Shown: one piece after another, positions 43,365 to 56,604 of the stretch
Layout of the letters: each line of letters opens with the position of its first letter
Position numbering within the stretch: the stretch's first letter is position 1
DNA from: Synechococcus sp. AG-673-F03
GTDB lineage: Bacteria; Cyanobacteriota; Cyanobacteriia; PCC-6307; Cyanobiaceae
Assembly (NCBI GenBank): GCA_003211205.1
Contig: QCTJ01000011.1
Coordinates: forward strand, 1 to 61,180
Direction: 5' to 3'
Length of the DNA: 61,180 nt
Notes under the pieces: model-generated
The model's input: only the letters and a program-made list of their open reading frames with translations
What the model was told of the DNA's origin: nothing
Databases searched by the model: none
Made by a program: the position numbers and the translations under genes

Positions 43365-43437
43365 GCCGATGTAGCTCAGCCGGTAGAGCAACGCTTTCGT
43401 AAAGCGTGGGTCGCCTGTTCAAGTCAGGTCATCGGCT
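43365..43437 (+). tRNA. tRNA-Thr (CGT anticodon)
   Basis: A complete cloverleaf: acceptor GCCGATG pairs with CATCGGC, D-arm AGCTCAGCCGGTAGAGCA, anticodon stem ACGCT/AGCGT with loop TTCGTAA giving anticodon CGT, and a TTCAAGTC T-loop. CCA is not encoded. The 3' half is the attachment site of the 13-kb element, which leaves the tRNA intact. Confidence 0.95.
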
Positions 43438-43438
43438 T
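43391..43438 (+). repeat. attL: left attachment repeat within tRNA-Thr
   Basis: A perfect 43-bp direct repeat (43396-43438) of the sequence at 56562-56604, running from the anticodon loop to one base past the tRNA 3' end. Extending five bases to the left adds a single mismatch (T/C). This is the classical attachment-site arrangement for tyrosine recombinases that use the 3' half of a tRNA gene. Confidence 0.93.
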
Positions 43439-43445
43439 AAGACTC

Positions 43446-43490
43446 AAACCCAGTTGCAGTAGGAGTTTTCCGCTGTCGCTGGGTTTTTTA
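43446..43490 (+). terminator. terminator after tRNA-Thr, supplied by the element
   Basis: AAACCCAG (43446-43453) pairs with CTGGGTTT (43479-43486), followed by a T run: a rho-independent terminator just inside attL. The corresponding original host terminator now lies beyond attR (56615-56655), so the element appears to carry its own. Confidence 0.78.
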
Positions 43491-43521
43491 TTTGCCTTGA
43501 ATTTCGACGAGTTTCGGGGTT

Positions 43522-43579
43522 TGCTCTCACCCTGCTCTCACTATGTGCTTATATTTGACCCACGCCTAACTGCTCTCAC
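43522..43579 (+). promoter_or_regulatory. left arm-type sites: three copies of TGCTCTCAC
   Basis: The 9-mer TGCTCTCAC occurs at 43522-43530, 43533-43541 and 43571-43579, all in the same orientation; the first two start 11 bp apart, about one helical turn. The third ends three bases before the integrase ATG, so protein bound here could also repress int. Three more copies lie inside the right end. By analogy with lambda Int these would be arm sites or accessory-protein sites. Confidence 0.7.
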
Positions 43580-43582
43580 CCC

Positions 43583-44761
43583 ATGGCTGACACAGCCAAA
43601 TGGATCACCAGACTTCGCAACAGCTGCCCTAAGGGCTGGTCTGTCCGCAACATGCGAGGCAAGGTTTTCCTGAGCGTTCGTTCCGGCAAGGGAGGCACCA
43701 CCGCCACGACCGTGACGCTGCCAACCGCCTGGGCTGCCGACACCGTTCCCGAGACAGTGCAGCTGATCACCGAACTGCACAAGCTGGTGGGCGAAGGTTT
43801 CGACCTGCGGGATGCGGTCGCCAAGTCCACTCAGCCAGCCGCGGCCACACGCCCAACAGTGACCAGCGAATGGCCAGTGCTGGTGGAAAAATTCCAGGCT
43901 GACCGGGAGGTGCTGGCACCCGTCACCGAGACCAGCTGGAAGCGCAACTATCAGCCGTTCCTAGAGCGCATCGTTCTGCTGATGGGCACGTCATCGCCAC
44001 CGGCCAATGCACGGGCGCTGGCCATCCGTCTGATTGAACCTTGGGCTGAAATGCCAACCAACAGGGGCAAGGCAATCAAGTGCCTGCGGTTGTTCCTTGA
44101 GTTCGGCGTTGAGGAATGCGGGCTGCCACCAGAAAGCTGGACCCTCACCGACCGTGCCGTGAAGCAACTGCGTGGCGCGAAGGCTGAACGCCGCACCGTG
44201 GCCACCATCACCGACGCTGAAATCCTGCACCTGTTGGATTCACTGGCCGACACCGACGCTGCCAACCGTTGGCGCAATGCAATCCAGCTAATGGCGCTTT
44301 ATGGGTTGCGGCCTGAAGAGCTGAACCACCTTGTGGTGAAGCAGCACCCAACGACAAAGCAACCGGCGCTGTTCTGCACCTACCAGAAGGTCTGCAACCG
44401 GGTGAAGACAAAACAGCGGTGGCTGATGCCCTTGCCGCTCACAGATGCCTTTGGCGAACAGGTGGACTGGAACCTTGCTGGTGCGATGGCCATCGGCCAG
44501 TTGCCGCTGCCACCCCTGGCTGACAAATACGCAGTGCGAACATTCCTTGAGCGCCAGAAGTATTGGCTGGAACTTAAAGAGCAATACACGGCATGCGGCG
44601 AATGGGTCAGGCCGTACAGCTTCAGGAATGCGTTTTCACTGCGTGCGCATCACTTAGGCCACCGCAATGACGTGATCTGTTTGGCCATGGGCCACAGCCT
44701 GAGCACACACGAAAGCAGCTACGAATGGGCTCGCAATGAGTCAGTCCTGGAGCATGTTTAA
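43583..44761 (+). CDS. tyrosine recombinase/integrase
   Basis: A 392-residue integrase reading away from the tRNA. The C-terminal catalytic domain has R243 (ALYGLRPEELNHL), R348 (YSFRNAF, the second Arg; the usual His three residues before is Tyr), H371 (AMGHS) and the nucleophile Y380 (HESSYEWA). The N-terminal half (about residues 20-200) contains a SAM-like core-binding domain, TETSWKRNYQPFLERI. Position next to attL supports that it integrates this element at tRNA-Thr. Confidence 0.92.
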   Translation: MADTAKWITRLRNSCPKGWSVRNMRGKVFLSVRSGKGGTTATTVTLPTAWAADTVPETVQLITELHKLVGEGFDLRDAVAKSTQPAAATRPTVTSEWPVLVEKFQADREVLAPVTETSWKRNYQPFLERIVLLMGTSSPPANARALAIRLIEPWAEMPTNRGKAIKCLRLFLEFGVEECGLPPESWTLTDRAVKQLRGAKAERRTVATITDAEILHLLDSLADTDAANRWRNAIQLMALYGLRPEELNHLVVKQHPTTKQPALFCTYQKVCNRVKTKQRWLMPLPLTDAFGEQVDWNLAGAMAIGQLPLPPLADKYAVRTFLERQKYWLELKEQYTACGEWVRPYSFRNAFSLRAHHLGHRNDVICLAMGHSLSTHESSYEWARNESVLEHV

Positions 44762-44947
44762 GCCATACCAGCGGAATTCAGGAAGGTATTAGCTGCCCAA
44801 CACTTGCATTGGCTTGCAGTCTTTGTAGTCTGAGATTGGAAATGAGGGGCACTGTTTTCAGTCCTCACCGTCCACCTCCATCAGTGGATGAGCGCGGCAG
44901 CTGGAAGGCTTGCCCGGAGCGGTCCTTGTTCTCGATGCAGAAGTGCC

Positions 44948-45301
44948 ATGGCACGTCGAACAAGACGCCTACTGACGGTCAACCACCCGATCACGGGAAA
45001 GTTGATTGAGGTTCGTACTCCGAGGGGCACAATTCCTGCGGACAAGCTTGTTCGTGCCTTTAAAAAAGCGCGCACTGTTCAACCAGATGGAACGGTTCGT
45101 TTCAGTTCAAAGCCGGTTCAAGCCGTGTTGGAGCCCTACTCCAAAGAATTGAAGCAAGCCGCTGAAATCCAAGAGCAAATGCAACGTGTCAATTGGCGCC
45201 AATGGGAAGAACAAGGGCTGAGTGACAACGGTTGGATTCAATTCCACCGTGTGCTCCGAAGGCTCTTAGACGCTTTTGCCTTCTCCTCTGCATCGAGTTA
45301 G
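44948..45301 (+). CDS. hypothetical basic protein of the element
   Basis: A 117-residue protein from ATG 44948; an in-frame ATG 20 codons earlier gives a less convincing, Cys-rich N-terminus. The start MARRTRRLLTVNHPITGKLI is basic, and the middle includes a predicted helix (YSKELKQAAEIQEQMQRVNW). I recognise no domain. It lies between the integrase and the excisionase-like gene and could be a DNA-binding accessory protein; that is inference from position and charge. Confidence 0.55.
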   Translation: MARRTRRLLTVNHPITGKLIEVRTPRGTIPADKLVRAFKKARTVQPDGTVRFSSKPVQAVLEPYSKELKQAAEIQEQMQRVNWRQWEEQGLSDNGWIQFHRVLRRLLDAFAFSSASS

Positions 45302-45320
45302 TCCCCTCTACTAACTCTCA

Positions 45321-45533
45321 ATGTCTGAAACAACTTGGCTGCAGACAGGGCCAATGGCGAATGAACTCGGAATTTCTGTCCGAACCATTCACCACTACAG
45401 GGCGTCTGAACAATCTCCCTGGATTCAAGGACGCCATTACAAACGCCGCACCCCGGCGAAAAGATCCCCATGGATCTGGAACCGCGATCTCACGTTGAAA
45501 GCCTGGGATCAGGCAAAAGGAGGTGCTGCGTGA
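45321..45533 (+). CDS. excisionase-like helix-turn-helix protein
   Basis: A 70-residue protein. MANELGISVRTIHHYRASEQ is a winged-HTH/MerR-like recognition segment, followed by a short basic wing (YKRRTPAKRSPW). The size, the fold type and its place between integrase and primase fit an excisionase (Xis), which would bend DNA at the arm sites. A transcriptional regulator role is equally possible. A strong AGGAGGT at 45518-45524, near its end, serves the next reading frame. Confidence 0.65.
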   Translation: MSETTWLQTGPMANELGISVRTIHHYRASEQSPWIQGRHYKRRTPAKRSPWIWNRDLTLKAWDQAKGGAA

Positions 45534-45595
45534 GCGACATCGTCCTTTCCGTTGCCATTCAACTCAGTGTTGCCGTCGCGAGGCGGACGGGGTGA
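45530..45595 (+). CDS. possible 21-residue leader peptide before the primase
   Basis: A GTG at 45530 follows the ideal Shine-Dalgarno AGGAGGT (45518-45524) at 5-6 bases. Its frame, VSDIVLSVAIQLSVAVARRT plus G, ends at TGA 45593-45595, overlapping the GTG (45592) that I take as the primase start. This looks like leader-coupled initiation. It may instead be chance, with the primase using another start. Confidence 0.4.
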   Translation: MSDIVLSVAIQLSVAVARRTG

Positions 45596-47964
45596 TCCAG
45601 CCAAAGCAAGAACTCATTGATTCGGGGTTGCCCCCTGCAATCCATAGCCGTCTGGGATACCGCTGTATCTCAGCAGAAGAGTGCAACAAGCTGATGGGTT
45701 TCAGCTTGTCTGGCTGGGTTGTTCCCATGAACGATTTAGAAGGCAAACCGTTCACTCACAACGGCAAGCCCTTCTATCGACTCAAGCCGGATCCTGGACA
45801 ATTCAATACTGACGATCCACCGAAATACCTTTCACCGACAGGCGGTGGATGCCGACCATATTTCTCACCCCTTCTGCCTGCGAAAGCCTTTGCGATAGGT
45901 CGAGACATTGACATCACCGAAGGCGAGAAAAAAGCTGACTGCGCCAATTACCACGGCTTCCCCACCATCGGCCTCTCAGGTGTTGATGCATGGCGCGACA
46001 AGCGCAATTGCAAAGCTGGTGAACACTCCAGGCCCCTACCTGAACTTCAAGTCATCAACTGGATGGGGCGCAAGGTTCGCCTTGTTTTCGATTCTGATGT
46101 CACGTCGAAGGATTCAGTCCGGCGTGCGCTCGTAGACCTATCTGCGTGGCTGACTGATCAAGGCGCTTCTGTGCTGATCGTTCTACTGCCCTGTGAAATC
46201 GATGGCAGTAAAAACGGCGTAGATGATTTCATCTGCCGCCATGGCCCCAAGGCTTATGGCCGTTTGCGAAGCATTGCCCGTCCTAGCTGCATTGGTGGAT
46301 CATTCATCTGGAAACCGGAGCCGAAGGAATCTCACCACAAGGCACTGACCGCCTGGACCATCTTTAACCACAACTACGCCTATCGGCCCGGCTTTGGGCT
46401 GTATCGCTGGGCGAACACTCACTGGCAACTTGCACCCGGCAGGGGAGAAAAGTCGCTTGATAAGCCTCTCCATCAATGGATGGATGCAATGCAATGGGAC
46501 AAACGTTCATCACATGTCATCGGTTCTGTTCGGGCTGAGCTGATGGCTCGCCTTGAGCACAACGACTGGAATCCTGCAGGCATCACTGCTTTCAAAAATG
46601 GCACTGTTCGTGACCACCAGTTCACGGCTGATCATTGCCACGATGACTGGCTCACCTTCTGTTTTCCCTTCCCTCGTGATCCAGGGGCAAAGTGCCCGCG
46701 CTGGCATCAGTTCCTCAGAGAAACATTGGTAGCTGATGATTTGATTTGTCTGCTACGCGCAGCAATTCGATGGTCAATCCTCCCCAAGGATCCTGAAAAG
46801 CCTTTCATTCATGAGCTGGCTTTTGATGTGATCGGCCAACGCCGTTCAGGGAAAGGCACACTCTCGGAAGTGCTGCAGGCCATCTGCGGAGGAAAACATG
46901 GTGTTGGGCTGATCAAGTCCAGCAGTTTCTCCAACCCCAACGCTCTTCAATCACTGATTGGCAAACGGATTGCGATTGATCCAGACGCATCCGGGCGAGT
47001 GTCAGATCCGGGAGTTTTCAACGCAGTGGCTTCAAACGAACCGGTGGAAGTCAAAAAGCTGTACGAAAATCACGACTGCGCACGCCTGGGAATTGTTGTT
47101 TGGCGATTTTTCAATGACACCCCAGGCGCTTCCGGTGGCGGCATGGAAGGCATGGGCCGCCGCATTGTCACCTTCGGGTTTGAGCGGTCAATCGCCAATC
47201 CCGATGGACAGCTCAAGGCCAAACTGACTGCGGAAGCAGCAGGCATTTTTTGGTGGGCATGGTCCATGCCAGAAGAGGAGATGCATGATGCCCTGGTTCA
47301 TCGCGGCAAAGTCTCTGCTGTTCTCAACGCATCCGTTGATGGTGCATTGGAACGAGACCATGTTCTGCGCTTCTCCACTGTTGTGAATCAGGGGAAATAC
47401 AAAGCTGCAGACCTCTATGACCGTTATCGCCAGTGGATGACCAGAGAAGGTCATCAAGCAGCATCATCAACCAAATTCGGGCGTGAAATCAAGAAACTCG
47501 GTTGGGTCAAACCCACCACCACAAAGGTCGGCTCCTGGTATGAACTCACCACTCCAACTCGCCACCAAGTGGCGATCCATCTCGGAGTGGACATTGAGGG
47601 CAACCGTGATGGTGAGTTGAACTCATCACAAAACCCAACTCACCACCAGAACCCACCACCGCCAAATCGCCTTCAACTCAAGCGAACTCAGCAGGATGTG
47701 GCGAGTGTGGTGAGTTCTTCTCTTGAAAACTCAGAAGGAGAAGAAAAAGAAATAAAGAGAGGCATGCAAAGAGAACAAAGAAATTTGGCGTCGCACTCAC
47801 CACACCCAACACCACATGGGCACATGAGTAAAGCTGTACCCGTGTTTGTCGACGGGCAAGGCGGTTGGTACTCACCCTCCGGACGTATTCCAAAGGGTGG
47901 AGGAGTCACCCTGATCGACCCCAACGGTGATTCACGTTGCATCGATGCCAAGCAGGTCTCTTAA
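45592..47964 (+). CDS. DUF3854/TOPRIM and D5/SF3 helicase replication protein
   Basis: About 790 residues from GTG 45592; an open frame runs 23 codons further upstream but overlaps the HTH gene. The N-terminal part is a DUF3854 Toprim-like domain: DITEGEKKAD near residue 108, LVFDSDV near 163 and NGVDDFI near 208. The C-terminal part is a phage/plasmid-primase (P4/D5 family) helicase with Walker A GQRRSGKGT near 414, then KRIAIDPDASGR and RRIVTFGFERS. The tail (about 680-790) is polar with His/Asn/Gln runs. Such proteins replicate satellites and plasmids, which suggests the element can replicate after excision. Confidence 0.85.
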   Translation: MIQPKQELIDSGLPPAIHSRLGYRCISAEECNKLMGFSLSGWVVPMNDLEGKPFTHNGKPFYRLKPDPGQFNTDDPPKYLSPTGGGCRPYFSPLLPAKAFAIGRDIDITEGEKKADCANYHGFPTIGLSGVDAWRDKRNCKAGEHSRPLPELQVINWMGRKVRLVFDSDVTSKDSVRRALVDLSAWLTDQGASVLIVLLPCEIDGSKNGVDDFICRHGPKAYGRLRSIARPSCIGGSFIWKPEPKESHHKALTAWTIFNHNYAYRPGFGLYRWANTHWQLAPGRGEKSLDKPLHQWMDAMQWDKRSSHVIGSVRAELMARLEHNDWNPAGITAFKNGTVRDHQFTADHCHDDWLTFCFPFPRDPGAKCPRWHQFLRETLVADDLICLLRAAIRWSILPKDPEKPFIHELAFDVIGQRRSGKGTLSEVLQAICGGKHGVGLIKSSSFSNPNALQSLIGKRIAIDPDASGRVSDPGVFNAVASNEPVEVKKLYENHDCARLGIVVWRFFNDTPGASGGGMEGMGRRIVTFGFERSIANPDGQLKAKLTAEAAGIFWWAWSMPEEEMHDALVHRGKVSAVLNASVDGALERDHVLRFSTVVNQGKYKAADLYDRYRQWMTREGHQAASSTKFGREIKKLGWVKPTTTKVGSWYELTTPTRHQVAIHLGVDIEGNRDGELNSSQNPTHHQNPPPPNRLQLKRTQQDVASVVSSSLENSEGEEKEIKRGMQREQRNLASHSPHPTPHGHMSKAVPVFVDGQGGWYSPSGRIPKGGGVTLIDPNGDSRCIDAKQVS

Positions 47965-48017
47965 TCCAACATTTTAAAAAGCCAATTCACACTGATCACG
48001 CCTGCCAGAATTGATGA

Positions 48018-48362
48018 ATGGGAAAGAAATGCACAAAGGCTGAGAAAACAGCGCGCGTTGAAGAGCTAGCCAATCTGATCGTCAAAGGGTTATCCCAACG
48101 GCAGCTCATGCACCATGTGACCACTTCCTGGGGGCTATCAGCAGAACAGGCTCACAGATACGTCCGCGAAGCAAGGGACGTCGTTAAAGCTGATCTCAGA
48201 GACATCGACCGAGTCGACATGCTTGCCAGCAAAGTTCAGATGCTTGAGCAGATCGCAACTGATGCTGTTGCCGCAGGCAGGGAGAGCAATGCGATTGGTG
48301 CTATTCGCTTGCTGAATGAACTTGTGGGCTTTGGAGCAGGACAGAAGTCAGGAACCTATTGA
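48018..48362 (+). CDS. small terminase-like DNA-packaging protein (TerS)
   Basis: A 114-residue protein. The N-terminal half has an HTH of the TerS kind: ARVEELANLIVKGLSQRQLM and then SWGLSAEQAHRYVREAR; the second half is a helical oligomerisation region (VQMLEQIATDAVAAGRESNA, IGAIRLLNELVGF). No large terminase is present, so if this really is TerS it would redirect a helper phage's packaging, as in PICI-type satellites. An ordinary HTH regulator is the alternative. Confidence 0.62.
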   Translation: MGKKCTKAEKTARVEELANLIVKGLSQRQLMHHVTTSWGLSAEQAHRYVREARDVVKADLRDIDRVDMLASKVQMLEQIATDAVAAGRESNAIGAIRLLNELVGFGAGQKSGTY

Positions 48363-48691
48363 TGAATCGATCACAGGCTCTCCAGTACATCGAGCAGCTA
48401 TTGGAGAAGGGGGAATTAGAAGAAGCAACTCATCGCTATGCACTGATCGTCGCTGATTTGATCAGCGATGCAGGAAATGAACAGCTGTCGCGCTGCCTTA
48501 CGCCGGAAGAGCTATCGGCCTGGATACGGCGTGATGCACTCGCCTGGCAAGCAAAGCTGAGCGAGGAGGCATTCGCAGAGCAATTTGAGGTTGGGCACGG
48601 CAATGCCTATGGATGCATCGAACAGATGCTGAGCTGTGTTGACTACGAGTTTGTGCTGGATCTGCTGGCCTCTATGCGTCAGTCGGACTAG
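48362..48691 (+). CDS. hypothetical helical protein coupled to the TerS-like gene
   Basis: A 109-residue acidic protein from ATG 48362, overlapping the previous stop (TGATG). It is rich in helix formers (ALQYIEQLLEKGELEEATHR, DALAWQAKLSEEAF). No motif is recognised. The overlap suggests co-translation with the TerS-like protein. Confidence 0.6.
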   Translation: MNRSQALQYIEQLLEKGELEEATHRYALIVADLISDAGNEQLSRCLTPEELSAWIRRDALAWQAKLSEEAFAEQFEVGHGNAYGCIEQMLSCVDYEFVLDLLASMRQSD

Positions 48692-49102: not shown

Positions 49103-49246
49103 ATGAACCGAGAACAGCGCGCTGCAGCGTTGAAGCTGTTGGCTGCGCTCAATGGAGACGCAGATGCAGAGCAATCAACAGTCACCTATGGAGATTGGCT
49201 CCAACACCTCACTGCGCAAGTCGAAGACGAGCTGAATGAGGACTGA
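49103..49246 (+). CDS. 47-residue acidic small protein heading the nuclease operon
   Basis: ATG 49103 to TGA 49246. It is acidic (E, D) with a helical start (MNREQRAAALKLLAALNGDA) and a YGDWLQHL motif. It overlaps the next gene by 11 bp if that starts at 49236. No family is recognised. Its position resembles that of small regulators or antitoxins at the head of coupled operons. Confidence 0.5.
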   Translation: MNREQRAAALKLLAALNGDADAEQSTVTYGDWLQHLTAQVEDELNED

Positions 49247-49817
49247 ATCAACGATGAATTCCAACCCACAACCACTGCAGGGAATCGGCTACGTCTACGT
49301 AGTCAGACACGCCAATGCCAGAGGCTTGACCAAGATCGGGCTCACTCGGCACCCACAGAAAAGAGAAGAACAACTAGGCGGTGACGACTGCGAGGTTCTG
49401 TGTCGTTTGCTGGTTCTCAGACCAGAAAGAGTTGAGGCCATGCTGCACAGCATCTTCAGCGCACAACGGGTTCCACAATCGGAATGGTTCGACCTTGGCG
49501 ATGAGCAGATCCGCGAAGCCTGCAATCTCCTAACTGAGGCTTACGGAGAAGTCACAGAGTTCTGTGTTCACTACAAGGCCCCAGAAGTCCCATGCTTGCG
49601 GGCGGAGTTGGAGCCCGAGGAAAAACCAAAGGGAAAGCCAAGGCCATTCAGAACGGAGCGGAGCAAACCAACGCAGACAGATAACGGATTTCAGCCAACG
49701 GCAGTTGGCTGGCTTGAAGAACAACGATTGAGGCGTGAGGCCGAAACTAAAAAGCGCGAACAAGCTTGGAATCAAGAGCTTGAGGCCAGGCGGGCCAAAG
49801 GGAGGCTTTGGGAATGA
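49236..49817 (+). CDS. GIY-YIG-like (T5orf172/MUG113-type) nuclease-domain protein
   Basis: A 193-residue protein; ATG 49236, or 49254 if shorter. The first 90 residues carry a GIY-YIG relative: GIGYVYVV near residues 17-23, TKIGLTRHPQKREEQLGG near 32-49, an acidic RVEAMLHSIF, and QSEWFDLGDEQ. This is the pattern of the T5orf172/MUG113 domain. The rest is a charged Arg/Lys/Glu-rich tail, coiled-coil-like at the end. It overlaps the next gene by ATGA. The nuclease function is inferred from motifs. Confidence 0.75.
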   Translation: MRTESTMNSNPQPLQGIGYVYVVRHANARGLTKIGLTRHPQKREEQLGGDDCEVLCRLLVLRPERVEAMLHSIFSAQRVPQSEWFDLGDEQIREACNLLTEAYGEVTEFCVHYKAPEVPCLRAELEPEEKPKGKPRPFRTERSKPTQTDNGFQPTAVGWLEEQRLRREAETKKREQAWNQELEARRAKGRLWE

Positions 49818-50248
49818 AATCCGCAGCAATTAAACGTCTAGTGCCAGAACTGTTCAGGGTCATCGCTGAACTTGAAGCAGCAGCCCCTGGCAGACACTTC
49901 ACACCTGATGGTCATCTCATCGGAAGCATTGGCGAAGTCACCGCGGCAGATCGCTACGGGTTGACTCTGACCACTGCCAGCACCAAAGGGATCGACGCAC
50001 ACGATGCCCAAGGGCGAGCCGTTGAAATCAAGTGCACTGGCAAAGGCAAAGGCGTTGCCCTGCGTGGCTATGAGCCATCAGCAGAACGCTTTATCGCGTT
50101 GCAAATCAACCGCGATGGTTCAGCTGTTGAGGTCTACGACGGTCCCGCTGCACCTATCTGGGCTGCAGTCGCACACAAGGCAATGCCATCTAACGGGCAA
50201 CGCACCATCACCCTCAACCAGCTGCGGCGACTGCAGGAGGTGGATTGA
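49814..50248 (+). CDS. DUF6998/restriction-endonuclease-like protein
   Basis: A 144-residue protein starting at the ATG that overlaps the previous stop. GSIGEVTAADRYGLTL is followed by GIDAHDAQGRAVEIKCTG: an Asp and an E-x-K spaced like a PD-(D/E)XK active site, as in DUF6998-type proteins. I recall the family from such motifs and am not certain of the exact assignment. It sits between two GIY-YIG-like proteins and overlaps both. Confidence 0.68.
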   Translation: MKSAAIKRLVPELFRVIAELEAAAPGRHFTPDGHLIGSIGEVTAADRYGLTLTTASTKGIDAHDAQGRAVEIKCTGKGKGVALRGYEPSAERFIALQINRDGSAVEVYDGPAAPIWAAVAHKAMPSNGQRTITLNQLRRLQEVD

Positions 50249-50949
50249 TGGGGTACGTCTACTTGGTCCGTAATGGCGATCTTTTCAAAATCGGGCGCAC
50301 TGAGAATCTTCAGCGTCGTCTCAAGCAACTACAGCCAGGACATTTAATACAAGCTGCACAAACAGATCGAAGCCGTGATTTGGAGTACGAATTGCACGCA
50401 CGATTTAAAGGCGTGAGGATTCCGCAGACTGAATACTTCCGATTAAATGACTACCAAGTTGAGCAGGTAAGAATTGCTCTTGGCTGGGCGAAGCCAAAGC
50501 CAATTCCACCAGTAGTGAAGCAAACTACCGAGGTTGTCAAAAGCAAACCTGAAGAATGGAAAGAGCAAGCTTCCATTTCAGATCAAGTCAACAAAAGCAA
50601 TCACAACTGCAAGGTTGCTGGTACTAATGAATACTCTCGATACACTGACCCAAAAACCAACTACAGCAACAGCGACTGGTATAAGCAACAAAGAATAGAA
50701 AGAGAGCGCGAAATAAAAAAGCAGGAAGAGCGGAGACAAGAACAACTCATTCAGAGAAAAGCAGAAAGGAGAAAAGAGAAGTTCCTCAGAGATTACGAAG
50801 CCGCAAAAAAGGCCAAAGCTGATGCAGCGAAGGAGAGTAAAGAATCAGAGGATGCAATACCTCCATTAGATGTTGGTGCTTTTGAACGCTGGAGGCAGCA
50901 ACTGTCCTTATCAAAACAATTTTTCAACTCAAATAAGGAAAAGGACTGA
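50248..50949 (+). CDS. second GIY-YIG-like (T5orf172-type) protein with charged tail
   Basis: A 233-residue protein. The N-terminal 85 residues repeat the fold of the upstream protein: MGYVYLVRNGDLFKIGRTEN, then RRLKQLQPG, DLEYELHARF and PQTEYFRLNDYQV. The remaining 150 residues are a Lys/Glu/Arg-rich, probably coiled-coil tail (RIEREREIKKQEERRQEQLI), unlike that of the first copy. The start overlaps the previous stop (TGATG) and the stop overlaps the SNase start. The gene is notably A-rich compared with its neighbours. Confidence 0.72.
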   Translation: MGYVYLVRNGDLFKIGRTENLQRRLKQLQPGHLIQAAQTDRSRDLEYELHARFKGVRIPQTEYFRLNDYQVEQVRIALGWAKPKPIPPVVKQTTEVVKSKPEEWKEQASISDQVNKSNHNCKVAGTNEYSRYTDPKTNYSNSDWYKQQRIEREREIKKQEERRQEQLIQRKAERRKEKFLRDYEAAKKAKADAAKESKESEDAIPPLDVGAFERWRQQLSLSKQFFNSNKEKD

Positions 50950-51287
50950 TGCTGCTTGCTGCCCTTGCCTCAGTCCTGATTGCCTCCTGCTACGACGGCG
51001 ATACCTGCACCACAAGTGCTGGCGAGAAGGTCCGGCTTGCCTGCATCGACACGCCAGAACTGCGTGGCAAACGTGCCAACCCTGTTCCTGCCAAAGCAGC
51101 ACGGGACTATCTGCGCGGGCTTGTCGTTGGTCGTGACGTAGGCATCAGACGCATCACCACTGACCGCTATGGGCGAACGGTGGCTGAGCTGTTTGTGGAT
51201 GGCTCAAACGTGCAGCAGCAACTGGTCGCTGCTGGTCATGCAGACATCTATTGGAAGTACGCGCACCAATGCGGGTGGACGCAATGA
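50949..51287 (+). CDS. staphylococcal nuclease-like (SNase) protein
   Basis: A 112-residue short SNase homolog. A hydrophobic N-terminus (MLLAALASVLIAS) may be a signal peptide; CYDGDTCTTSAGEKVRLACI then DTPEL is the SNase start with the catalytic Asp region, and RYGRTVAELFVDG matches the RDKYGR-type motif region. It is shorter than S. aureus nuclease (about 150) but within the range of the family. It is coupled to both neighbours. Confidence 0.82.
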   Translation: MLLAALASVLIASCYDGDTCTTSAGEKVRLACIDTPELRGKRANPVPAKAARDYLRGLVVGRDVGIRRITTDRYGRTVAELFVDGSNVQQQLVAAGHADIYWKYAHQCGWTQ

Positions 51288-51642: not shown

Positions 51643-51987
51643 ATGAAACTTTCTACTTTCGTCGCTATCGCTGCTGTTATCGGCGGTTCTTTTTTAATCA
51701 CACCAACAGCTGCAGAAGCTCGCAGAAACTGCCCTGCAGGCACTAGCTATCACAAAATCAAGTCCGGTGGCCTTCTCTTCAAACGCACTGTTGCTGAAGG
51801 ATGCTTCACTGACTACGAAGCAAGTAATTTGAAAATGAATGCCAATAATGCTCACAGGGCGCGCGTTCAACAAAATATTCAGAACGCCAATAGGCAGATG
51901 TGGGACAACATCAATAGCAACAACAACAGAACACGCAACTGCACAACCAACTTCGTCGGAAATACTGCGTACAGCAACTGCTACTGA
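51643..51987 (+). CDS. secreted Cys-containing protein
   Basis: A 114-residue protein with a clear signal peptide (MKLSTFVAIAAVIGGSFLI then TPTAAEARR, cleavage near AEA). The mature part has cysteines at CPAG, EGCF, NCTT and NCY, perhaps two disulfides, and an Asn-rich stretch. No family is recognised. It probably acts outside the cytoplasm. Confidence 0.62.
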   Translation: MKLSTFVAIAAVIGGSFLITPTAAEARRNCPAGTSYHKIKSGGLLFKRTVAEGCFTDYEASNLKMNANNAHRARVQQNIQNANRQMWDNINSNNNRTRNCTTNFVGNTAYSNCY

Positions 51988-51998
51988 TTGACTATCTC

Positions 51999-52102
51999 TT
52001 TGTCGGGAAGCCTGAAGCCATGAAAGCGAGGCTGAGAGCTATACAAGACCCGAAAGGGAAAAGCAGGGGGCGTTGAGTAGTCGCTATCGATCTCCCGACA
52101 AA
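51999..52102 (+). ncRNA. candidate structured RNA of about 104 nt
   Basis: Closing arms TTTGTCGGGA (51999-52008) and TCCCGACAAA (52093-52102) are perfect reverse complements. Inside lie AGCCT/AGGCT and a CCC-GAAA-GGG hairpin with a GNRA tetraloop, so a multi-branched fold is possible. It starts 12 bases after one gene stop and ends 28 bp before the ATG of the next small gene. It matches no riboswitch I know. It could be a regulatory leader, an sRNA, or a small inverted-repeat element. No reverse transcriptase is nearby, so a retron is unlikely. Confidence 0.45.
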
Positions 52103-52129
52103 ACAATCCAACAAACAAGAGAAATCTAA

Positions 52130-52315
52130 ATGAATAAATCAATGTCAGGAACAACCGCAAAAGCCCATCTACTGGAACTGCTGCTCGAACCACTAAAAGG
52201 TTGCACCGGGCTCTACAACTACAGGCAGGATCTAATGAAAAAGATCATGGCGATGCCCGATCTGAAAGTGAGGGAGTATCTGGACTATCACGAGCGGTGC
52301 AACGCTCCCAGCTAA
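52130..52315 (+). CDS. hypothetical 61-residue protein
   Basis: ATG 52130 (MNKSMSGTTAKAHLLELLLE), with a helical C-terminal part (DLMKKIMAMPDLKVREYLDY). No domain is recognised. It follows the structured RNA candidate and is followed by a terminator at 52325, which supports it as a transcription unit. Confidence 0.5.
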   Translation: MNKSMSGTTAKAHLLELLLEPLKGCTGLYNYRQDLMKKIMAMPDLKVREYLDYHERCNAPS

Positions 52316-52324
52316 TACACCAGA

Positions 52325-52345
52325 CCCGCCAAGCGCGGGGCTTTT
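52325..52345 (+). terminator. terminator
   Basis: CCCGC (52325-52329) pairs with GCGGG (52335-52339), followed by CTTTT. It closes the unit of the 61-residue protein. A near-identical hairpin recurs at 52588. Confidence 0.6.
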
Positions 52346-52483
52346 GCTGACCTGGAGCAATGGCATCACCGGCGTCCGCGTGAGCTGAATTTCTAGCGAG
52401 CGACTGTGTCATTCGGTTTCCCTGCCTTGTGCCAATCTTCCATTCGTCCTTAGCTAGGTCTGAAGGGACCCGGAGGTAGGCGG

Positions 52484-52579
52484 ATGGTCGATGTTGACTG
52501 GGCTGGTGTATTTGCACTTCTCTCGATAATCACCTTGATAACAGTGATCGGATATCGAGAAGGACACTCAACTCTTTAG
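52484..52579 (+). CDS. 31-residue single-helix membrane peptide
   Basis: ATG 52484 lies six bases after a strong GGAGGT (52472-52477). The peptide MVDVDWAGVFALLSIITLIT, then VIGYREGHSTL, is one transmembrane helix with a short charged end. A terminator (52588-52609) follows its stop directly, so this is a compact one-gene unit. The strong RBS and terminator support expression; the function is unknown. Confidence 0.55.
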   Translation: MVDVDWAGVFALLSIITLITVIGYREGHSTL

Positions 52580-52587
52580 TCCTTTAC

Positions 52588-52609
52588 CCCCGCCAAGCGC
52601 GGGGTTTTT
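52588..52609 (+). terminator. terminator of the 31-residue peptide gene
   Basis: CCCCGC (52588-52593) pairs with GCGGGG (52599-52604), then a T run. Almost the same hairpin as at 52325, so the two are probably duplicates. Confidence 0.75.
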
Positions 52610-52632
52610 ACTGTCTGGCCACTCGGGCTGAA

Positions 52633-52671
52633 TCACCACTTAGGCGGGCATCGCTTTATCCCGCCCACTGC
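52633..52671 (-). pseudogene. relic of a DUF1651-like C-terminus
   Basis: The reverse strand here ends GGIKRCPPKW-stop, nearly the same as GGWKRCPPRW-stop of the gene at 54632. No upstream part of the gene is present. It is a short remnant of one of several duplicated DUF1651-like genes in the right half of the element. Confidence 0.5.
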
Positions 52672-52679
52672 AGGCAAAC

Positions 52680-52705
52680 AAAACCCCCACTCGGAAGGAG
52701 CGGGG
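52680..52705 (-). terminator. terminator of the following reverse-strand gene
   Basis: On the reverse strand CCCCGCTC and GAGTGGGG form an 8-bp stem with a G-T pair, followed by TTTT. It lies 22 bp after the stop of the gene at 52728-53405. Confidence 0.7.
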
Positions 52706-52727
52706 CATTGCGTTGAAACGTCGTGGC

Positions 52728-53405
52728 TCAGATGTCGTCACCACCGGGATCAGCACTGCCGGTGAGGTTGTTAGTGGGCATCTCGAACTGTCCTGTCATG
52801 TAGGTCGAACCACCAGGACCAGCAGTGCCGGCGAGTTCAAGAACAGGGTTGAGTGATTCCCCGAAGCTGGTCATCTCAGCGAGTGGTTCGAAGCGTTCGA
52901 TTACAAACCTGTTATCGCTTATGAGACCAGTTGTTTGTAATTCGCCCTTGATGTCGCCAAGCTTCATAAAGCCATCGACATCTTCGTCGACATAAGCATT
53001 GCTCTGGCTGGCGTTCTTTGCTGTCAGGTAACTCGAACCAGGACCACCATTGGCTGCAGTCCAGTCGATGTTCTCCCTAACGCCGAACACCGCATCGTTG
53101 GCGTCAAAGTCCAGAGCCAGTCGATCTTCAAAGGTGCTGGCACCACCGTTTGTCCAGATTTTCGTTGGACGACCATCACCTGTGATGGAGTCGCCGTCGC
53201 CACCTGTTGTGAAGTGGTTATCCATGACGATCACGCTGCCTTTGGTGTCGATGTCTTGAGTCTTGAAGACACCGTTACCACTGATGGGACCCAGGATTTT
53301 GGGATCAAAGTTGGTTGTTTCGTTCAGTGCATCGACTTTGCCGGTCAGCTCATCAATGGGCTGAGCAGAGAGGTAAGAGCCGCCATAGGTCGTGTAGTGA
53401 GGCAT
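52728..53405 (-). CDS. hypothetical acidic Gly/Asp-rich protein
   Basis: About 225 residues from ATG 53405 (MPHYTTYGGSYLSAQPIDEL); a TTG at 53489 would extend it by 28 residues. The composition is acidic with many Gly, Asp, Asn and Thr; short patterns such as GGSYLSAQ, GSSYLTAK and GGSTYMTGQ recur at intervals, suggesting an internal repeat unit. There is no signal peptide or recognised domain. It has its own terminator. The repeats resemble secreted or surface proteins, but that is weak. Confidence 0.55.
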   Translation of the reverse strand: MPHYTTYGGSYLSAQPIDELTGKVDALNETTNFDPKILGPISGNGVFKTQDIDTKGSVIVMDNHFTTGGDGDSITGDGRPTKIWTNGGASTFEDRLALDFDANDAVFGVRENIDWTAANGGPGSSYLTAKNASQSNAYVDEDVDGFMKLGDIKGELQTTGLISDNRFVIERFEPLAEMTSFGESLNPVLELAGTAGPGGSTYMTGQFEMPTNNLTGSADPGGDDI

Positions 53406-53560
53406 TGGTCTAAAAGCGGTGGAGGGTTGTTCCCTCTCGATGGACACACCATCTCCGGATTCAGCAGCTGACTTGATGACCCATCTCAACCGGTGCTGTG
53501 AGGTTGGTCACAGGGTCTTGCAATCGGATCGGGGATGGTGAATCCAGACAGGAGAACGCC

Positions 53561-53617
53561 ATGGAACCGATCACCGCCACCGTCGTCATCGTTGCTCTTG
53601 TGGCACTGGCTTGCTGA
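53561..53617 (+). CDS. possible 18-residue hydrophobic peptide
   Basis: ATG 53561, preceded by AGGAGA at a reasonable distance, encodes MEPITATVVIVALVALAC. It is wholly hydrophobic, like a short membrane peptide or a stray signal-like ORF, and overlaps a DUF1651 relic on the other strand. Confidence 0.3.
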   Translation: MEPITATVVIVALVALAC

Positions 53618-53757
53618 GCGTCACCACCCGGGCTGACAGAGTTTCCCAGGCTTCGATGGCGTTATGGCGCAACATGCGCGTGACCGCAGGCTGACCATCA
53701 CCCCTTAGCGGACTGGTCTCCACACCGAACCGTAGTGTGAGTTCACTGGTTTCAGCG
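53586..53757 (-). pseudogene. DUF1651-like gene fragment (5' end lost in the riboswitch region)
   Basis: The reverse strand reads LRFGVETSPLRGDGQPAVTR and MLRHNAIEAWETL, almost the same as VVETRPLRGGGQPVVRRMLR and HNAIEAWETM in the gene at 54632. The DNA is also repeated: 53644-53671 and 54681-54708 are 28 identical bases. The upstream part runs into the cobalamin riboswitch on the other strand, and the C-terminal end (KPVPQEQR-stop) differs. It is a truncated paralog. Confidence 0.55.
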
Positions 53758-53862
53758 GGAATCAGCCGCTGAAGGAAACGGGGAAAGAACGGTGCGAATC
53801 CGTCGCTGTCCCGCAGCTGTGAAACGTCGGCTTTCCGCCCGCGTCAGTCAGAACGCCCGCCA
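53745..53862 (+). promoter_or_regulatory. cobalamin (B12) riboswitch
   Basis: The leader carries the conserved B12-element boxes: GGGAA near 53781, GGTGCGAATCCG at 53791-53802, then GCTGTCCCGCAGCTGTGAA, and a late GTCAGTCAGAACGCCCGCC at 53843-53861 (the GCCAGGATACCTGCC-type box). It ends 24 bp before the hupE ATG. Binding of adenosyl- or other cobalamin would fold the leader and reduce expression of the gene below. Confidence 0.88.
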
Positions 53863-53885
53863 GGATTCCTCACGACGCGGATCGT

Positions 53886-54521
53886 ATGAACTACTTGTCC
53901 AAGTCCAGCCCCATGCTGCGGGCTGGTGTGATCTCCACTGCGGGATTGCTAGCCGCTTCTCTGCTCAGCCCTGCCCATGCCCATCACCCCTTCGGAATGG
54001 GAGACAGCACAAACCTCACCGCTCTGCAGGGCTTATTGAGTGGCATCGGCCACCCGCTACTGGGACCTGACCATCTGCTGTTCCTACTGGCCATCGCTTT
54101 GATCGGCCTACCGCGACCCCGCACCTGGGTGCTGCCCTTGCTAGCGGCTGGTCTGAGCGGCAGTGTTCTGTCTCAATTCATTCCCCTGCCGGATGCCATG
54201 GGTCCCTGGGCGGAGGCACTGGTGTCTCTCACTCTTGCTGCAGAAGGCTTGATGGCTCTTATCGCCATACCTACATCTCTTTTATTCCCGTTGGTGGCCG
54301 TGCACGGTTTTCTGCTGGGGAGCACGATTGTTGGTGCCGAACCCACGCCTCTGGTGACTTATTTCCTGGGCTTGCTGATCGCTCAGGGAGCCTTGCTCCT
54401 GGTGGTCACCAGCTGGTCCAAGGCCCTGCTGAAGCGCATCGGCGCTCAGGGGCAACGTCTTAGTGCTGGTATCTGGATTGGCATTGGTATGGCGTTTGCC
54501 TGGGTAGCCCTGATCGACTGA
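53886..54521 (+). CDS. hupE: HupE/UreJ family permease under B12 control, probable cobalt transporter
   Basis: A 211-residue membrane protein with a cleavable signal (AGVISTAGLLAASLLSPAHA), a His-rich mature start (HHPFGMGD), about six hydrophobic segments and the family motif GIGHPLLGPDHLLFLLAIAL. HupE/UreJ proteins move nickel or cobalt. Since a B12 riboswitch precedes this one, cobalt is the likely substrate (inference from established riboswitch-HupE associations in cyanobacteria). It is a cargo gene of the element. Confidence 0.9.
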   Translation: MNYLSKSSPMLRAGVISTAGLLAASLLSPAHAHHPFGMGDSTNLTALQGLLSGIGHPLLGPDHLLFLLAIALIGLPRPRTWVLPLLAAGLSGSVLSQFIPLPDAMGPWAEALVSLTLAAEGLMALIAIPTSLLFPLVAVHGFLLGSTIVGAEPTPLVTYFLGLLIAQGALLLVVTSWSKALLKRIGAQGQRLSAGIWIGIGMAFAWVALID

Positions 54522-54631
54522 TCAAGAGTGTCAAACGTCTTAATGCCACTGAGGCCGAATGACTCAATGCTGTGACATCAACCGTGCGGGATGACCCCGA
54601 GTGGACCTGAAAAATCCCACAGCGACGTTGT

Positions 54632-54988
54632 TCACCACCTAGGCGGGCACCGTTTCCACCCACCTGACTTCTGCATGGTCTCCCAGGCTTCGATGGCGTT
54701 ATGGCGCAGCATCCTTCTGACCACAGGCTGACCACCACCGCGTAGTGGCCTGGTCTCCACAACAACCCACTGCGCGTGTGCCGTTGGATTGGCATTGGTG
54801 AAGCTGCAGACGTTTTGCTCTTGGTCGTTCATCAAGCAGCCAACACCTTTCTTCGGTACTGAAGACGATCCGCACCGGGGCCCATGCTCGGAGGTCACTT
54901 GATTGATACGACAAGCACCAGGCGACCCTGGTTGCGCAACGCATACCGTTGCTATGACTTCAGAAGTCAATTTGAACTCATCGCCCAA
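54632..54988 (-). CDS. DUF1651-like picocyanobacterial protein
   Basis: A 118-residue frame; the conserved part begins near residue 45 (KKGVGCLMNDQEQNVCSFTN), so translation may start later. The second half, AQWVVVETRPLRGGGQPVVR, then HNAIEAWETMQKSGGWKRC, matches my recollection of the DUF1651 family of marine Synechococcus and Prochlorococcus. The function is unknown. Three damaged copies lie in the same 4-kb stretch. Confidence 0.6.
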   Translation of the reverse strand: MGDEFKLTSEVIATVCVAQPGSPGACRINQVTSEHGPRCGSSSVPKKGVGCLMNDQEQNVCSFTNANPTAHAQWVVVETRPLRGGGQPVVRRMLRHNAIEAWETMQKSGGWKRCPPRW

Positions 54989-55082
54989 AAACCATTCAAG
55001 GTCTTACTGGTCTAAGGCACAAAAGAGGCAATCAAGGTGATATTGACCACCACTAACCAACCACAAACAACAGCGAATACAC

Positions 55083-55463
55083 ATGCCATCAGCAAAATAC
55101 ATCCAGGGCATGCAAGAAATGCAAAAGCATTTTGGCCATGCTGCTGAAAAATGGATCAAGGCAATCTATGACATTTACCCTGAGTTTGCGAAGGTAAATG
55201 TAGAATTTCCGTTTGGTGAATTATATCGAAGAGATGTTATTGACGACAAAACGCGTGAGCTGTGCACGGTGGCAGCGCTGACAGTCCAAGGCTTTTCGAT
55301 GCCAGAACTAAAGGTGCATATAAAGGGCGCATTAAACACAGGAAGCAACAAATCAGAAATCCTCGAAATCATCACCCAAATGATTGCATATTGCGGATTT
55401 CCAGCTGCAACGAATGCACTTTTAGCTGCGCAAGATGTTTTTGATGAAGTTGAATGCAACTAG
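55083..55463 (+). CDS. carboxymuconolactone decarboxylase (CMD)-like protein
   Basis: A 126-residue protein. RELCTVAALTVQGFSMPELK, then VHIKGALNTGSNKSEILEII and GFPAATNALLAA, is the CMD/AhpD fold pattern. The usual CxxC redox pair of AhpD is absent; a lone Cys is in ELCTVAA. It could be a decarboxylase-like or oxidative-stress protein. The gene is AT-richer than its surroundings. It precedes a cupin gene by 9 bp, suggesting a two-gene operon. Confidence 0.85.
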   Translation: MPSAKYIQGMQEMQKHFGHAAEKWIKAIYDIYPEFAKVNVEFPFGELYRRDVIDDKTRELCTVAALTVQGFSMPELKVHIKGALNTGSNKSEILEIITQMIAYCGFPAATNALLAAQDVFDEVECN

Positions 55464-55472
55464 CTTAAAACC

Positions 55473-55895
55473 ATGAAAAATGACGCTGTAAATTTTTGGC
55501 GTGTGTGGGTAAATGGTCAAGGTGAAAGTTGTCAGAGCCTCCACTCACTTACAGGGCATCAGCAATCAGTCTTTGCGCAGGGAGCAGCTCCAATCTGGAG
55601 TGCAGTTCACTACGAGGGAAACGCTAAATTAATAACTTTGATATTAATGCCGGGTGAAATTGGGGACTGGCATGAAAATCCAATGCCTCAATGGATCATT
55701 CCTTTACGTGGGCGCTGGAGCGTAGAGACAATGGATGGTGTCATTGTGGAGATGGGGCCCGGAGATATCAGCTTTGGGGGTGATCAGGGAACAAAAAATA
55801 AAAAAGGCCATCGTTCTTGGGCCGTCGGTCAAGCACCAGCCGAACTTCTTTTGATTCAAGTGCCAGAACCTCCTCCATGGAACCCCCACGCGTAA
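55473..55895 (+). CDS. cupin-fold protein
   Basis: A 140-residue protein. The cupin pattern is visible: LMPGEIGDWHENPMPQWIIP, then LRGRWSVETMDG and MGPGDISFGGDQGTKNKKGH, with His residues in motif 1 and a late His as possible metal ligands. It ends in PEPPPWNPHA. Paired with the CMD-like gene; together they may act on a small organic molecule, but the substrate is unknown. Confidence 0.82.
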   Translation: MKNDAVNFWRVWVNGQGESCQSLHSLTGHQQSVFAQGAAPIWSAVHYEGNAKLITLILMPGEIGDWHENPMPQWIIPLRGRWSVETMDGVIVEMGPGDISFGGDQGTKNKKGHRSWAVGQAPAELLLIQVPEPPPWNPHA

Positions 55896-55920
55896 GTTTT
55901 GATGATATTCGCGCCACGGG

Positions 55921-56142
55921 CTATTCACCGCTCCGCAGCAGTCGGGTCTTAACGACGACCCATTGAGCCTGCGCCGTGGGCGATTCATTCGTGAAGCCGC
56001 AGACCTTCCCCTGCTGGTCATTCAGCAACCAGCCGACACCCCTCTTTGGTGGGTGCCGTTCAACCTGTGGGCGGTCCTTGTTTGGCATCCCGACACGATG
56101 GCGAAACGGCCTTGCAAATGCTGGGCAAACTGAAACCTGCAA
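55921..56142 (-). pseudogene. DUF1651-like gene truncated by a stop
   Basis: The reverse strand reads KRGVGWLLNDQQGKVCGFTN, then ESPTAQAQWVVVKTRLLRSG, closely like the gene at 54632 (GVGCLMNDQEQNVCSFTN, AQWVVVETRPLRGG). It then stops at TAG (RSGE-stop); the sequence after the stop begins PVAR, resembling QPVVRR, and then diverges. It is another damaged copy. Confidence 0.6.
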
Positions 56143-56152
56143 TCAGTTGTTC

Positions 56153-56419
56153 ATGCCAGAAACCACCAGCCCGAAAGTCGAACTGACGTGTCTGCAGGGG
56201 TTGGCTGATCTGGAACGAATCGAAGGGCCATTTCTGAATGCACTGACCGCAAGCGACCCCGAAGGAGCGGCGGTCATGCTGCGTTTGTTGCTGGCCCACA
56301 TGGCATCGACCAGCAAACGGGTGATGTTGGCAATGGTGCTGGACCGCGTGGATGCAGATGAATTGGGCCTTTGCGAAGGGCTCATTCATGAAGATGCGCA
56401 AAGTCCTGCAGAAGCTTGA
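56153..56419 (+). CDS. hypothetical helical protein near the right end
   Basis: An 88-residue protein from ATG 56153 (MPETTSPKVELTCLQGLADL); the longer open frame from 55976 overlaps the DUF1651 relic antisense, so I used the inner start. It is helical (LNALTASDPEGAAVMLRLLL, MLAMVLDRVDADELGL) with no recognised family. It is the last gene before the right arm sites. Confidence 0.5.
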   Translation: MPETTSPKVELTCLQGLADLERIEGPFLNALTASDPEGAAVMLRLLLAHMASTSKRVMLAMVLDRVDADELGLCEGLIHEDAQSPAEA

Positions 56420-56436
56420 AACAGGTCTGCAAAAGG

Positions 56437-56508
56437 GTGAGAGCAGTGCTCTCACTTTTTCGTCAAACCCTGCCTGCAGCGGATTGCAGACACCTGCGGG
56501 TGAGAGCA
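56437..56508 (+). promoter_or_regulatory. right arm-type sites: three copies of TGCTCTCAC
   Basis: GTGAGAGCA at 56437-56445 and TGCTCTCAC at 56447-56455 form an inverted pair one base apart; a further GTGAGAGCA is at 56500-56508. With the left set, the consensus is CTGCTCTCACCC. The right set lies 54-125 bp from attR. Confidence 0.7.
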
Positions 56509-56556
56509 GAAATCCAGTCCCTGACTAGAAAACCCTTGCAATGACTGGGCTCAGGG

Positions 56557-56604
56557 ACGCCTTCGTAAAGCGTGGGTCGCCTGTTCAAGTCAGGTCATCG
56601 GCTT
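56557..56604 (+). repeat. attR: right attachment repeat
   Basis: Bases 56562-56604 are identical to 43396-43438 in tRNA-Thr. This partial tRNA copy lacks the 5' half, so it is not a functional tRNA. It marks the right boundary of the element. Confidence 0.93.

Follow-up and report, generated by a model that had tools for sequence, protein, structure and literature searches.

The stretch of DNA studied here, 61,180 nucleotides from the presumably marine Synechococcus sp. AG-673-F03 (contig QCTJ01000011.1; C11 of genome G000) and called the window throughout, contains a 13.2-kb element inserted at a tRNA-Thr(CGT) gene. We regard it as fairly likely that this is a seemingly intact integrative element, satellite-like and of the kind represented by tycheposons and phage-inducible chromosomal islands (PICIs). 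Comparison with related genomes strongly supports a mobile, tRNA-sited element: empty sites and occupied sister sites were found, the integrase shows low synonymous divergence (dS) and the element brings a terminator-like hairpin of its own. The element is real and probably intact; its integrase, excisionase-like and primase open reading frames (ORFs) are all unbroken. That it is a satellite is plausible, given that a large terminase subunit (TerL) is encoded by three sister elements in this tRNA and that no head or tail family was found among 20 sister ORFs scanned.

Integration site, empty sites and terminator-like hairpins

An earlier first-pass annotation of the window had placed a 13.2-kb element in tRNA-Thr(CGT) between exact 43-bp repeats, with an integrase reading away from the tRNA end. 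Both statements hold: ARAGORN and Rfam recognize the tRNA gene, the two 43-nt copies of the attachment (att) core are identical, and the integrase ORF points away from tRNA-Thr. The core comprises the last 42 bases of tRNA-Thr and one further base, placing the element in the 3' half of the gene. The bases bordering its left and right copies differ (T and C before, A and C after), and a longer repeat pair, 43391-43489 and 56557-56655, shares 79% identity. By our own arithmetic, the expected chance of an exact 43-nt repeat within about 21 kb is of the order of 1e-18, which is negligible. In the source assembly (2.0 Mb in 82 contigs, 81% complete), the tRNA-Thr stretch is matched at two places only, both of them att ends of the element.

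Empty sites, the check proposed by that annotation, were indeed found in close relatives. The tRNA-Thr gene with its left flank was used as query against 99 genomes, the source genome included, and gave matches in 78. From the best matches, 17 tRNA-Thr loci were fetched; three other fetched regions carry further copies of the repeat. Twelve of the 17 loci are empty, with one core copy, a DUF389 gene 0.04-2.2 kb further on and no integrase match. Four are occupied (genomes G011, G015, G016 and G024), and one, from another genus (G034), has a single core and neither a DUF389 nor an integrase match. The closest relative, G001, is empty: its flanks, aligning with those of the window at 93.5% identity on the left (490 nt) and 91.5% on the right (2126 nt), join near the core; G010 is a second empty site with flanks alignable to the window. 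In attL and both aligned empty sites a T precedes the core, in attR a C, as expected if attR is the element's own core copy. GC content (53.5% in the element, 57.8% in the remaining window) is little informative, because the right host flank itself has 51.4%. An "attP-like" junction in locus L049 was dropped from consideration; the integrase remnant there is 1.8 kb distant. With a repeat of the tRNA 3' end, an integrase close to one end and empty sites in relatives, the insertion is, at the level of sequence, a tRNA-sited integrative element.

By prediction, insertion of the element rebuilds both the tRNA gene and the terminator-like hairpin following it. The hairpin carried by the element is unlike that of the host, and the displaced host hairpin aligns with and resembles the hairpin of the empty site in G001 (z -3.4, 1/200 shuffles). 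A simple consensus terminator scan listed neither of the two hairpins of the window, perhaps because their stems are interrupted.

Integrase family and elements at the same site

The integrase has no Pfam match at E ≤ 0.01. Tyrosine recombinases share a catalytic set of R, K, H/YxxR, H/W and Y, and the integrase has R243, K269, Y345xxR348, H371 and Y380, invariant across 31 aligned sequences, which we take to be the residues of this motif; judged by them, it is a tyrosine recombinase. Ninety homologues were found, and 98 distinct sequences were used for a FastTree phylogeny. A tRNA gene lies at most 700 bp upstream on the same strand in 37 of the 98 cases, and none does in the other 61, some of which come from loci ending near the integrase; L063 was scored among the latter, yet tRNA-Arg(CCT) is located about 1 kb away. 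Seven tRNA-Thr integrases, including that of the window, form one clade (support 0.999), and an eighth, L064, falls on a separate branch together with L063. Integrases at tRNA-Gly(CCC) (n=9) and tRNA-Gly(TCC) (n=4) form exclusive clades, those at tRNA-Arg(TCT) (n=15) are scattered, and one is found at tRNA-Val(TAC). The integrase query matched 367 of 400 genomes of the family, the weak rows probably including Xer recombinases. Relatives in Prochlorococcus have 26-30% identity, with one additional partial match of 38%.

The four sister integrases are 96.7-99.5% identical to that of the window, and an excisionase-like gene (70-84% identity) is present near each of them. Replication genes are of several kinds: DUF3854+D5 in the window, DUF5906/primase in G011, DUF3854+AAA_25 in G015, DUF3987 in G016 and AAA_25 in G024. 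G011 and G015 each have a topoisomerase gene (PHROG 6247); in G016 there is a larger fusion of topoisomerase-VI-like type. Only the G011 element is whole on one fetched stretch. As far as can be read from these loci, the elements at tRNA-Thr constitute a family with much alike integrases and ends and with differing replication, packaging and cargo parts.

In all four pairs with the window, integrase dS is lower than dS of the host flank genes (0.13-0.62 vs 0.29-3.18). The respective values are 0.62 vs 3.18 (DUF389) and 1.79 (DUF3493) for G011, 0.13 vs 0.34 and 0.29 for G015, 0.18 vs 0.48 and 0.62 for G016, and 0.35 vs 0.69 (DUF3493; DUF389 not computable) for G024. These values fit horizontal spread; exchange of the site by homologous recombination would leave a similar picture. 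The dS of xis is not as low (0.96 in G011; 0.53 in G015, above both flank genes), which points to different histories of individual element parts. Genome G016 has two right-end/core/left-end junctions with integrase remnants behind them, and this fits a tandem insertion followed by decay. On its contig C1, tRNA-Thr with the integrase (L037, 2515 kb) and the right end (L048, 2737 kb) with DUF389 (2747 kb) are about 220-230 kb apart and oppositely oriented, an arrangement suggesting an inversion with one breakpoint within the element array.

Repeated genes of Nif11-leader precursors of ribosomally synthesized and post-translationally modified peptides, prochlorosin-like in kind, stand beside the G016 and G024 elements (L037:5747-6019, a TIGR03798 match; L035:13402-13674; L048:4686-6276; L208:12228-14515). 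Genome G006 has five tandem genes of secreted-looking proteins of 366-429 amino acids (aa) (L205:954-7828), the one checked being without Pfam match; a single copy of this type is found behind the terminase genes in the G011 and G016 elements.

Gene content and cargo

Features of the element and its borders are listed in Table 1. The first-pass annotation was right on the excisionase-like ORF, the DUF3854+D5 protein, the nucleases and the metal transporter, and the absence of structural phage genes that it remarked on was borne out by a scan of 19 element ORFs, none of which matches a head or tail PHROG. Relaxase, coupling protein and type IV secretion families are likewise absent from these 19 ORFs in the Pfam scan. 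Two tRNA-Arg elements (L062 and L087) have a homologue of the 137-aa ORF, located after the integrase and before xis.

Table 1. Predicted features of the tRNA-Thr element and its borders (positions in the window; HTH, helix-turn-helix; AF2, AlphaFold2; pLDDT, predicted local distance difference test)
Feature	Position	Strand	Evidence or remark
tRNA-Thr(CGT), integration target, complete at left end	43365..43437	+	ARAGORN; Rfam RF00005 65.5 bits
Left 43-nt att core copy	43396..43438	+	Repeat comparison
Element-borne terminator-like hairpin with T run, 3' of tRNA, unlike the host's own	43446..43489	+	Fold -22.9 kcal/mol, z -4.7, 0/200 shuffles as good
Tyrosine recombinase (integrase), 392 aa	43583..44761	+	PHROG 1 'integrase' 1e-6; R/K/YxxR/H/Y invariant
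137-aa ORF, no assigned function	44888..45301	+	Homologues L062 58%, L087 54%
Excisionase-like protein	45321..45533	+	DUF1233 1.8e-4 (21.5 bits, cut-off 22); PHROG 539 excisionase 3e-4
Primase-helicase DUF3854 + D5_N, 813 aa	45523..47964	+	Pfam, PHROG
114-aa HTH-like and long-helix protein, candidate small terminase subunit (TerS)	48018..48362	+	PHROG 34910 1e-10 (no function); AF2 pLDDT 85; gene contexts
110-aa partner ORF, overlapping the 114-aa gene	48359..48691	+	Same pairing in L201, L202, L203, L207, L208
T5orf172/GIY-YIG-type nuclease 1	49236..49817	+	Pfam MUG113, T5orf172
DUF6998 protein, perhaps PD-(D/E)XK nuclease (motif by eye)	49808..50248	+	Pfam 1.7e-41; weak PADLOC mREase_II 3.8e-4
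T5orf172/GIY-YIG-type nuclease 2	50245..50949	+	Pfam MUG113, T5orf172
Staphylococcal-nuclease-like protein	50949..51287	+	SNase 2.6e-13
Small ORF, signal-peptide-like start (by eye)	51643..51987	+	50% homologue in G024 element
253-aa ORF	52728..53489	-	38% homologue close to right end of G011 element
Cobalamin riboswitch	53730..53878	+	RF00174 53.2 bits
HupE/UreJ-type transporter under riboswitch, probably cobalt uptake (by analogy)	53886..54521	+	Pfam 4.4e-14
DUF1651 gene	54632..54988	-	Pfam 3.7e-5; related DNA at 53641-53731 and about 55914-56050
Carboxymuconolactone-decarboxylase-like (CMD) cargo	55083..55463	+	Pfam 3.2e-19
Cupin-like cargo	55473..55895	+	Cupin_2 2.3e-5 (24.5 bits, cut-off 27.2)
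Conserved right-end ORF	55976..56419	+	Present at four sister right ends fetched: L040, L050, L048, L049
Right 43-nt att core copy	56562..56604	+	Repeat comparison
Host terminator-like hairpin with T run, displaced	56616..56655	+	-19.9 kcal/mol, z -3.7, 1/200 shuffles
DUF389 gene, host flank; adjoins tRNA-Thr in empty-site relatives	58835..60028	+	Pfam

In the nuclease cluster (T5orf172-DUF6998-T5orf172-SNase), the reading frames overlap or abut. DUF6998 occurs in 14 of 300 genomes of the family, and two of the 15 other DUF6998 loci read also have SNase: L250 (G016, about 0.6 kb apart) and L252 (G010, overlapping). By analogy, the cluster may have an anti-phage role. Passages of PMC10448857 describe T5orf172-derived proteins acting in phage-satellite conflicts, where Odn, a T5orf172 nuclease, belongs to the phage and CapR of the phage-inducible chromosomal island-like element (PLE) shares its DNA-binding part only. 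In contrast to PLE as portrayed there, two predicted T5orf172 proteins are encoded by our element itself.

The hupE gene lies directly under the cobalamin riboswitch. According to passages of PMC7689651, certain cyanobacterial HupE homologues under cobalamin riboswitches have been called cobalt transporters, with support from Synechocystis mutants; by analogy, HupE of the element probably serves cobalt uptake. Among 31 genomes of the genus, counting the source genome, 27 have a HupE homologue. The riboswitch/HupE cassette of G001 (1.03 kb, 96% identical) is located some 1.06 Mb away from tRNA-Thr and is bordered by 42-nt direct repeats sharing 88% identity (L239:8334-8375 and 9677-9718), and its dS to the window copy (0.054) is close to that of the host (0.06-0.10). 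At the corresponding place, the window genome has a single repeat and lacks the cassette. The G015 cassette forms part of the right end of its tRNA-Thr element, with a dS to the window of 0.023, below the host values of 0.29-0.34; that of G010 is about 5 kb from another integrase of the family. As mapped in these assemblies, the cassette occupies different places among close relatives. Viewed by eye, the G001 repeats restore the 3' end of a coding sequence with synonymous changes, resembling a second gene-end att-type insertion. Capture of hupE by the element as an ancestral core gene was considered and the direction left unsettled; the G001 copy, flanked by repeats, may itself be an insertion.

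Three stretches of DUF1651-related DNA lie between 53641 and 56050 of the window and surround the HupE and CMD-cupin cassettes, an arrangement reminiscent of cassette exchange at the repeats. DUF1651 was rejected as a marker of such elements; it is modestly enriched and most DUF1651 genes are elsewhere. In 20 genomes, nine of 127 matches are within 20 kb of an integrase place (3.2 expected; 49 of 5000 rotations reach nine) and five within 10 kb (1.7 expected; 249 of 5000 rotations). This test used 31 integrase places in 12 of the 20 genomes, namely 29 rows with E ≤ 1e-20 plus two remnants from G016. It excluded weaker rows, which judging by position and recurrence are in many cases ordinary Xer recombinases, and used rounded lengths for four genomes. 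A glutamine-II riboswitch match lies in the right host flank at 57418-57473 on the minus strand (36 bits, cut-off 33).

Packaging genes and the nature of the element

In the elements of G011 (L040), G016 (L037) and G024 (L035), genes of a 220-237-aa protein and a 487-490-aa TerL follow directly behind the primase/helicase. These TerLs belong to PHROG 2 (6.9e-15, 2.7e-12 and 2.1e-12, respectively), which is the sole head or packaging family among the sister ORFs scanned. The G011 TerL found matches in 178 phage records; in 23 the match spans 80% or more of the protein, and all are below 60% identity; among the 20 phage matches listed, identity is below 30% and 17 are annotated as terminase. When four such TerLs were compared, three, among them that of the tRNA-Arg element L087, were 85-88% identical to the first. 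An endonuclease-VII-like gene stands behind the terminase genes of G011 (L040:10997-11653, PHROG 1035, 1.3e-24).

In the window and in G015, where the copy is cut by the contig end, the 114-aa gene takes the place of the TerL module. The AF2 model of its product comprises a helical N-terminal region, one long helix and an additional helix, and we infer from position and helix layout that TerS is likelier than a replication or regulatory factor. The 114-aa protein alignment has matches in 75 of 400 genomes of the family. In G281 (L210), a gap of 61 bp separates a homologue from a TerL C-terminal part that follows it; among 30 fetched loci, this place (also fetched as L172) is the only one with a TerL-model match within 1.5 kb of the 114-aa gene. 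By its sequence, the 114-aa/110-aa module is also present behind another integrase: a second element of the source genome (C21, L201:2631-8271) has a 32%-identical integrase, a helicase-like ORF and close copies of both genes.

Several results weigh against TerS and against a satellite. A primase/helicase-like ORF closely precedes the 114-aa gene in ten loci read (window, L034, L201, L202, L204, L205, L209, L210, L214 and L218), and in nine of them the stretch read has no TerL match, so that a replication or regulatory role is possible. A broken 114-aa copy (one stop) in G016, about 12 kb beyond TerL, means that the two modules are not strictly exclusive per region. Comparison of the 114-aa protein with PDB folds gave nothing at E ≤ 0.001 and VIA-align no clear match; hhalign detected no profile match to the 220-237-aa sister proteins, and tblastn in phages none at E 0.01, with three chance-level matches at E 6-8. 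Its BFVD fold matches are two viral proteins (E 2.4e-4 and 8.5e-4), neither named terminase, and entries named TerS follow only from E 0.27 on. The 220-237-aa proteins are themselves called TerS by position only and match PHROG 'Rnase E' (2.5e-6 to 2.7e-4) and a function-less family. Scans of viral contigs found no close relative of the integrase, the primase, the 114-aa protein alignment or the att core. Excision and packaging are putative, and satellite status is what we infer. The name "TerS-like" of the first-pass annotation keeps the backing of gene position and helix layout and gains none from PDB, profile and phage searches; its "satellite/tycheposon-like" is well founded for a mobile tRNA-sited element and plausible for a satellite, the element's own TerS call coming from position and helix layout only.

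The same observations could be accounted for by an integrative cargo element, a tycheposon in the wide sense, which would excise, replicate and move by passive routes (vesicles, generalized transduction, uptake) and use the 114-aa protein as a replication or regulatory factor. The negative TerS tests, the TerL-free loci behind primase/helicase-like ORFs, the cargo-rich right end and the viral contigs without close relatives speak for it. We consider it rather unlikely, with TerL encoded by three same-site sisters, the 114-aa gene adjoining a TerL part in L210, and distant integrases of the family residing in contigs with tailed-phage genes. The last point comes from five loci in viral contigs (L160-L164) found with the integrase alignment at 30-33% identity; ORFs were listed for all five and ten proteins scanned, nine of them from three of these loci. 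L164 (IMGVR_UViG_3300009794_000011, 3768-15272) has TerL (PHROG 15, 1.5e-250), portal, head/head-protease, sigma factor and minor tail genes and is a putative temperate tailed phage, perhaps of cyanobacteria; hence, a place in a satellite does not hold for every distant integrase of the family.

These phage relatives, along with an integrase and primase of phage type, are also in line with a prophage decayed after loss of its structural genes. Its integrase, excisionase-like and primase ORFs being unbroken, and no head or tail family apart from TerL appearing in the window (19 ORFs) or the four same-site elements (20 ORFs) as far as contigs reach, such an origin is very improbable. Still less credence is due to an integrative and conjugative or mobilizable element (ICE/IME): the tRNA site, integrase and cargo are common in IMEs, but the relaxase, coupling protein and type IV secretion families did not turn up among the 19 element ORFs in the Pfam scan.

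Under the satellite reading, which we prefer, induction, probably by phage infection, would lead Int and Xis to excise the element as a circle, and the DUF3854/D5 primase-helicase would replicate it. The 114-aa HTH-like protein, as small terminase, would steer the packaging machinery of a helper phage to element DNA; the nuclease cluster would act against DNA of phages or competitors, and the right-end cargo (cobalt uptake and others) may benefit the host. A more far-reaching version is offered tentatively, being itself doubtful: one tRNA-Thr site may host a satellite family that keeps integrase and ends and swaps its whole packaging module (TerS+TerL without capsids vs a lone 114-aa factor), hijacking different helper phages at different steps, and that carries a relocating cobalt cassette and an anti-phage nuclease cluster.

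PICIs follow an int - regulator/xis - primase plan, lack virion genes and carry terS, and capsid-forming PICIs (cfPICIs) have capsid and packaging genes on the element. The predicted genes of our element follow the same int - regulator/xis - primase plan, with no virion structural genes in the ORFs scanned, and are in this respect of the satellite (PICI) type. It differs from PICIs and from phage-inducible chromosomal minimalist islands (PICMIs) in having no known helper, a candidate TerS and metal-uptake cargo. It does not appear to be a cfPICI: no head family was detected in the 19 window ORFs, and the same-site sisters have TerL alone in their 20 ORFs, with no capsid genes seen. Tycheposons of Prochlorococcus (Hackl et al., Cell 2023) are said to have a tRNA-sited tyrosine recombinase, replication genes and nutrient-type cargo, some being viral satellites. 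Our element shares with them the picocyanobacterial host, tRNA-sited tyrosine recombinase, replication genes and nutrient-type cargo, and differs in its Synechococcus host and tRNA-Thr(CGT) site; the likeness is by description, not by integrase clade. Passages of PMC10872708 give a tRNA border, a tyrosine recombinase and 4-200 kb as tycheposon features. On a definition drawn in part from these passages, the sequence has the broad traits, namely a size within 4-200 kb, a tRNA at the border, a tyrosine recombinase, genes for replication, and cargo, and "tycheposon-like" describes it well, formal clade membership not being implied. PICMIs are without terS homologues in passages of PMC10803314. 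Passages of PMC10187409 outline another family of tRNA-associated integrases in picocyanobacteria, which differs from the tycheposon integrases. Compared by description, it is similar in being a divergent tyrosine recombinase at tRNAs of Prochlorococcus and Synechococcus with clades following the tRNA, whereas its members lie upstream of tRNA-Phe or tRNA-Cys and ours, in the loci with a tRNA identified, downstream of tRNA-Thr, -Arg, -Gly or -Val.

In a literature search covering titles, abstract openings and passages, with few subscription papers, this element was not described. What is less usual about it, judging from the genomes compared, is that one integrase is combined with different packaging modules and that the cobalt cassette relocates; among close relatives, the metal-uptake (B12-riboswitch/HupE) cassette is seen either on a mobile element or elsewhere in the chromosome. 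If our reading is true, Synechococcus would join the hosts of satellite-like tRNA elements, with target and ends defined, empty sites available and five elements of one site to compare, and this would open a direct route to testing how picocyanobacterial islands move and whether cyanophages are their prey.

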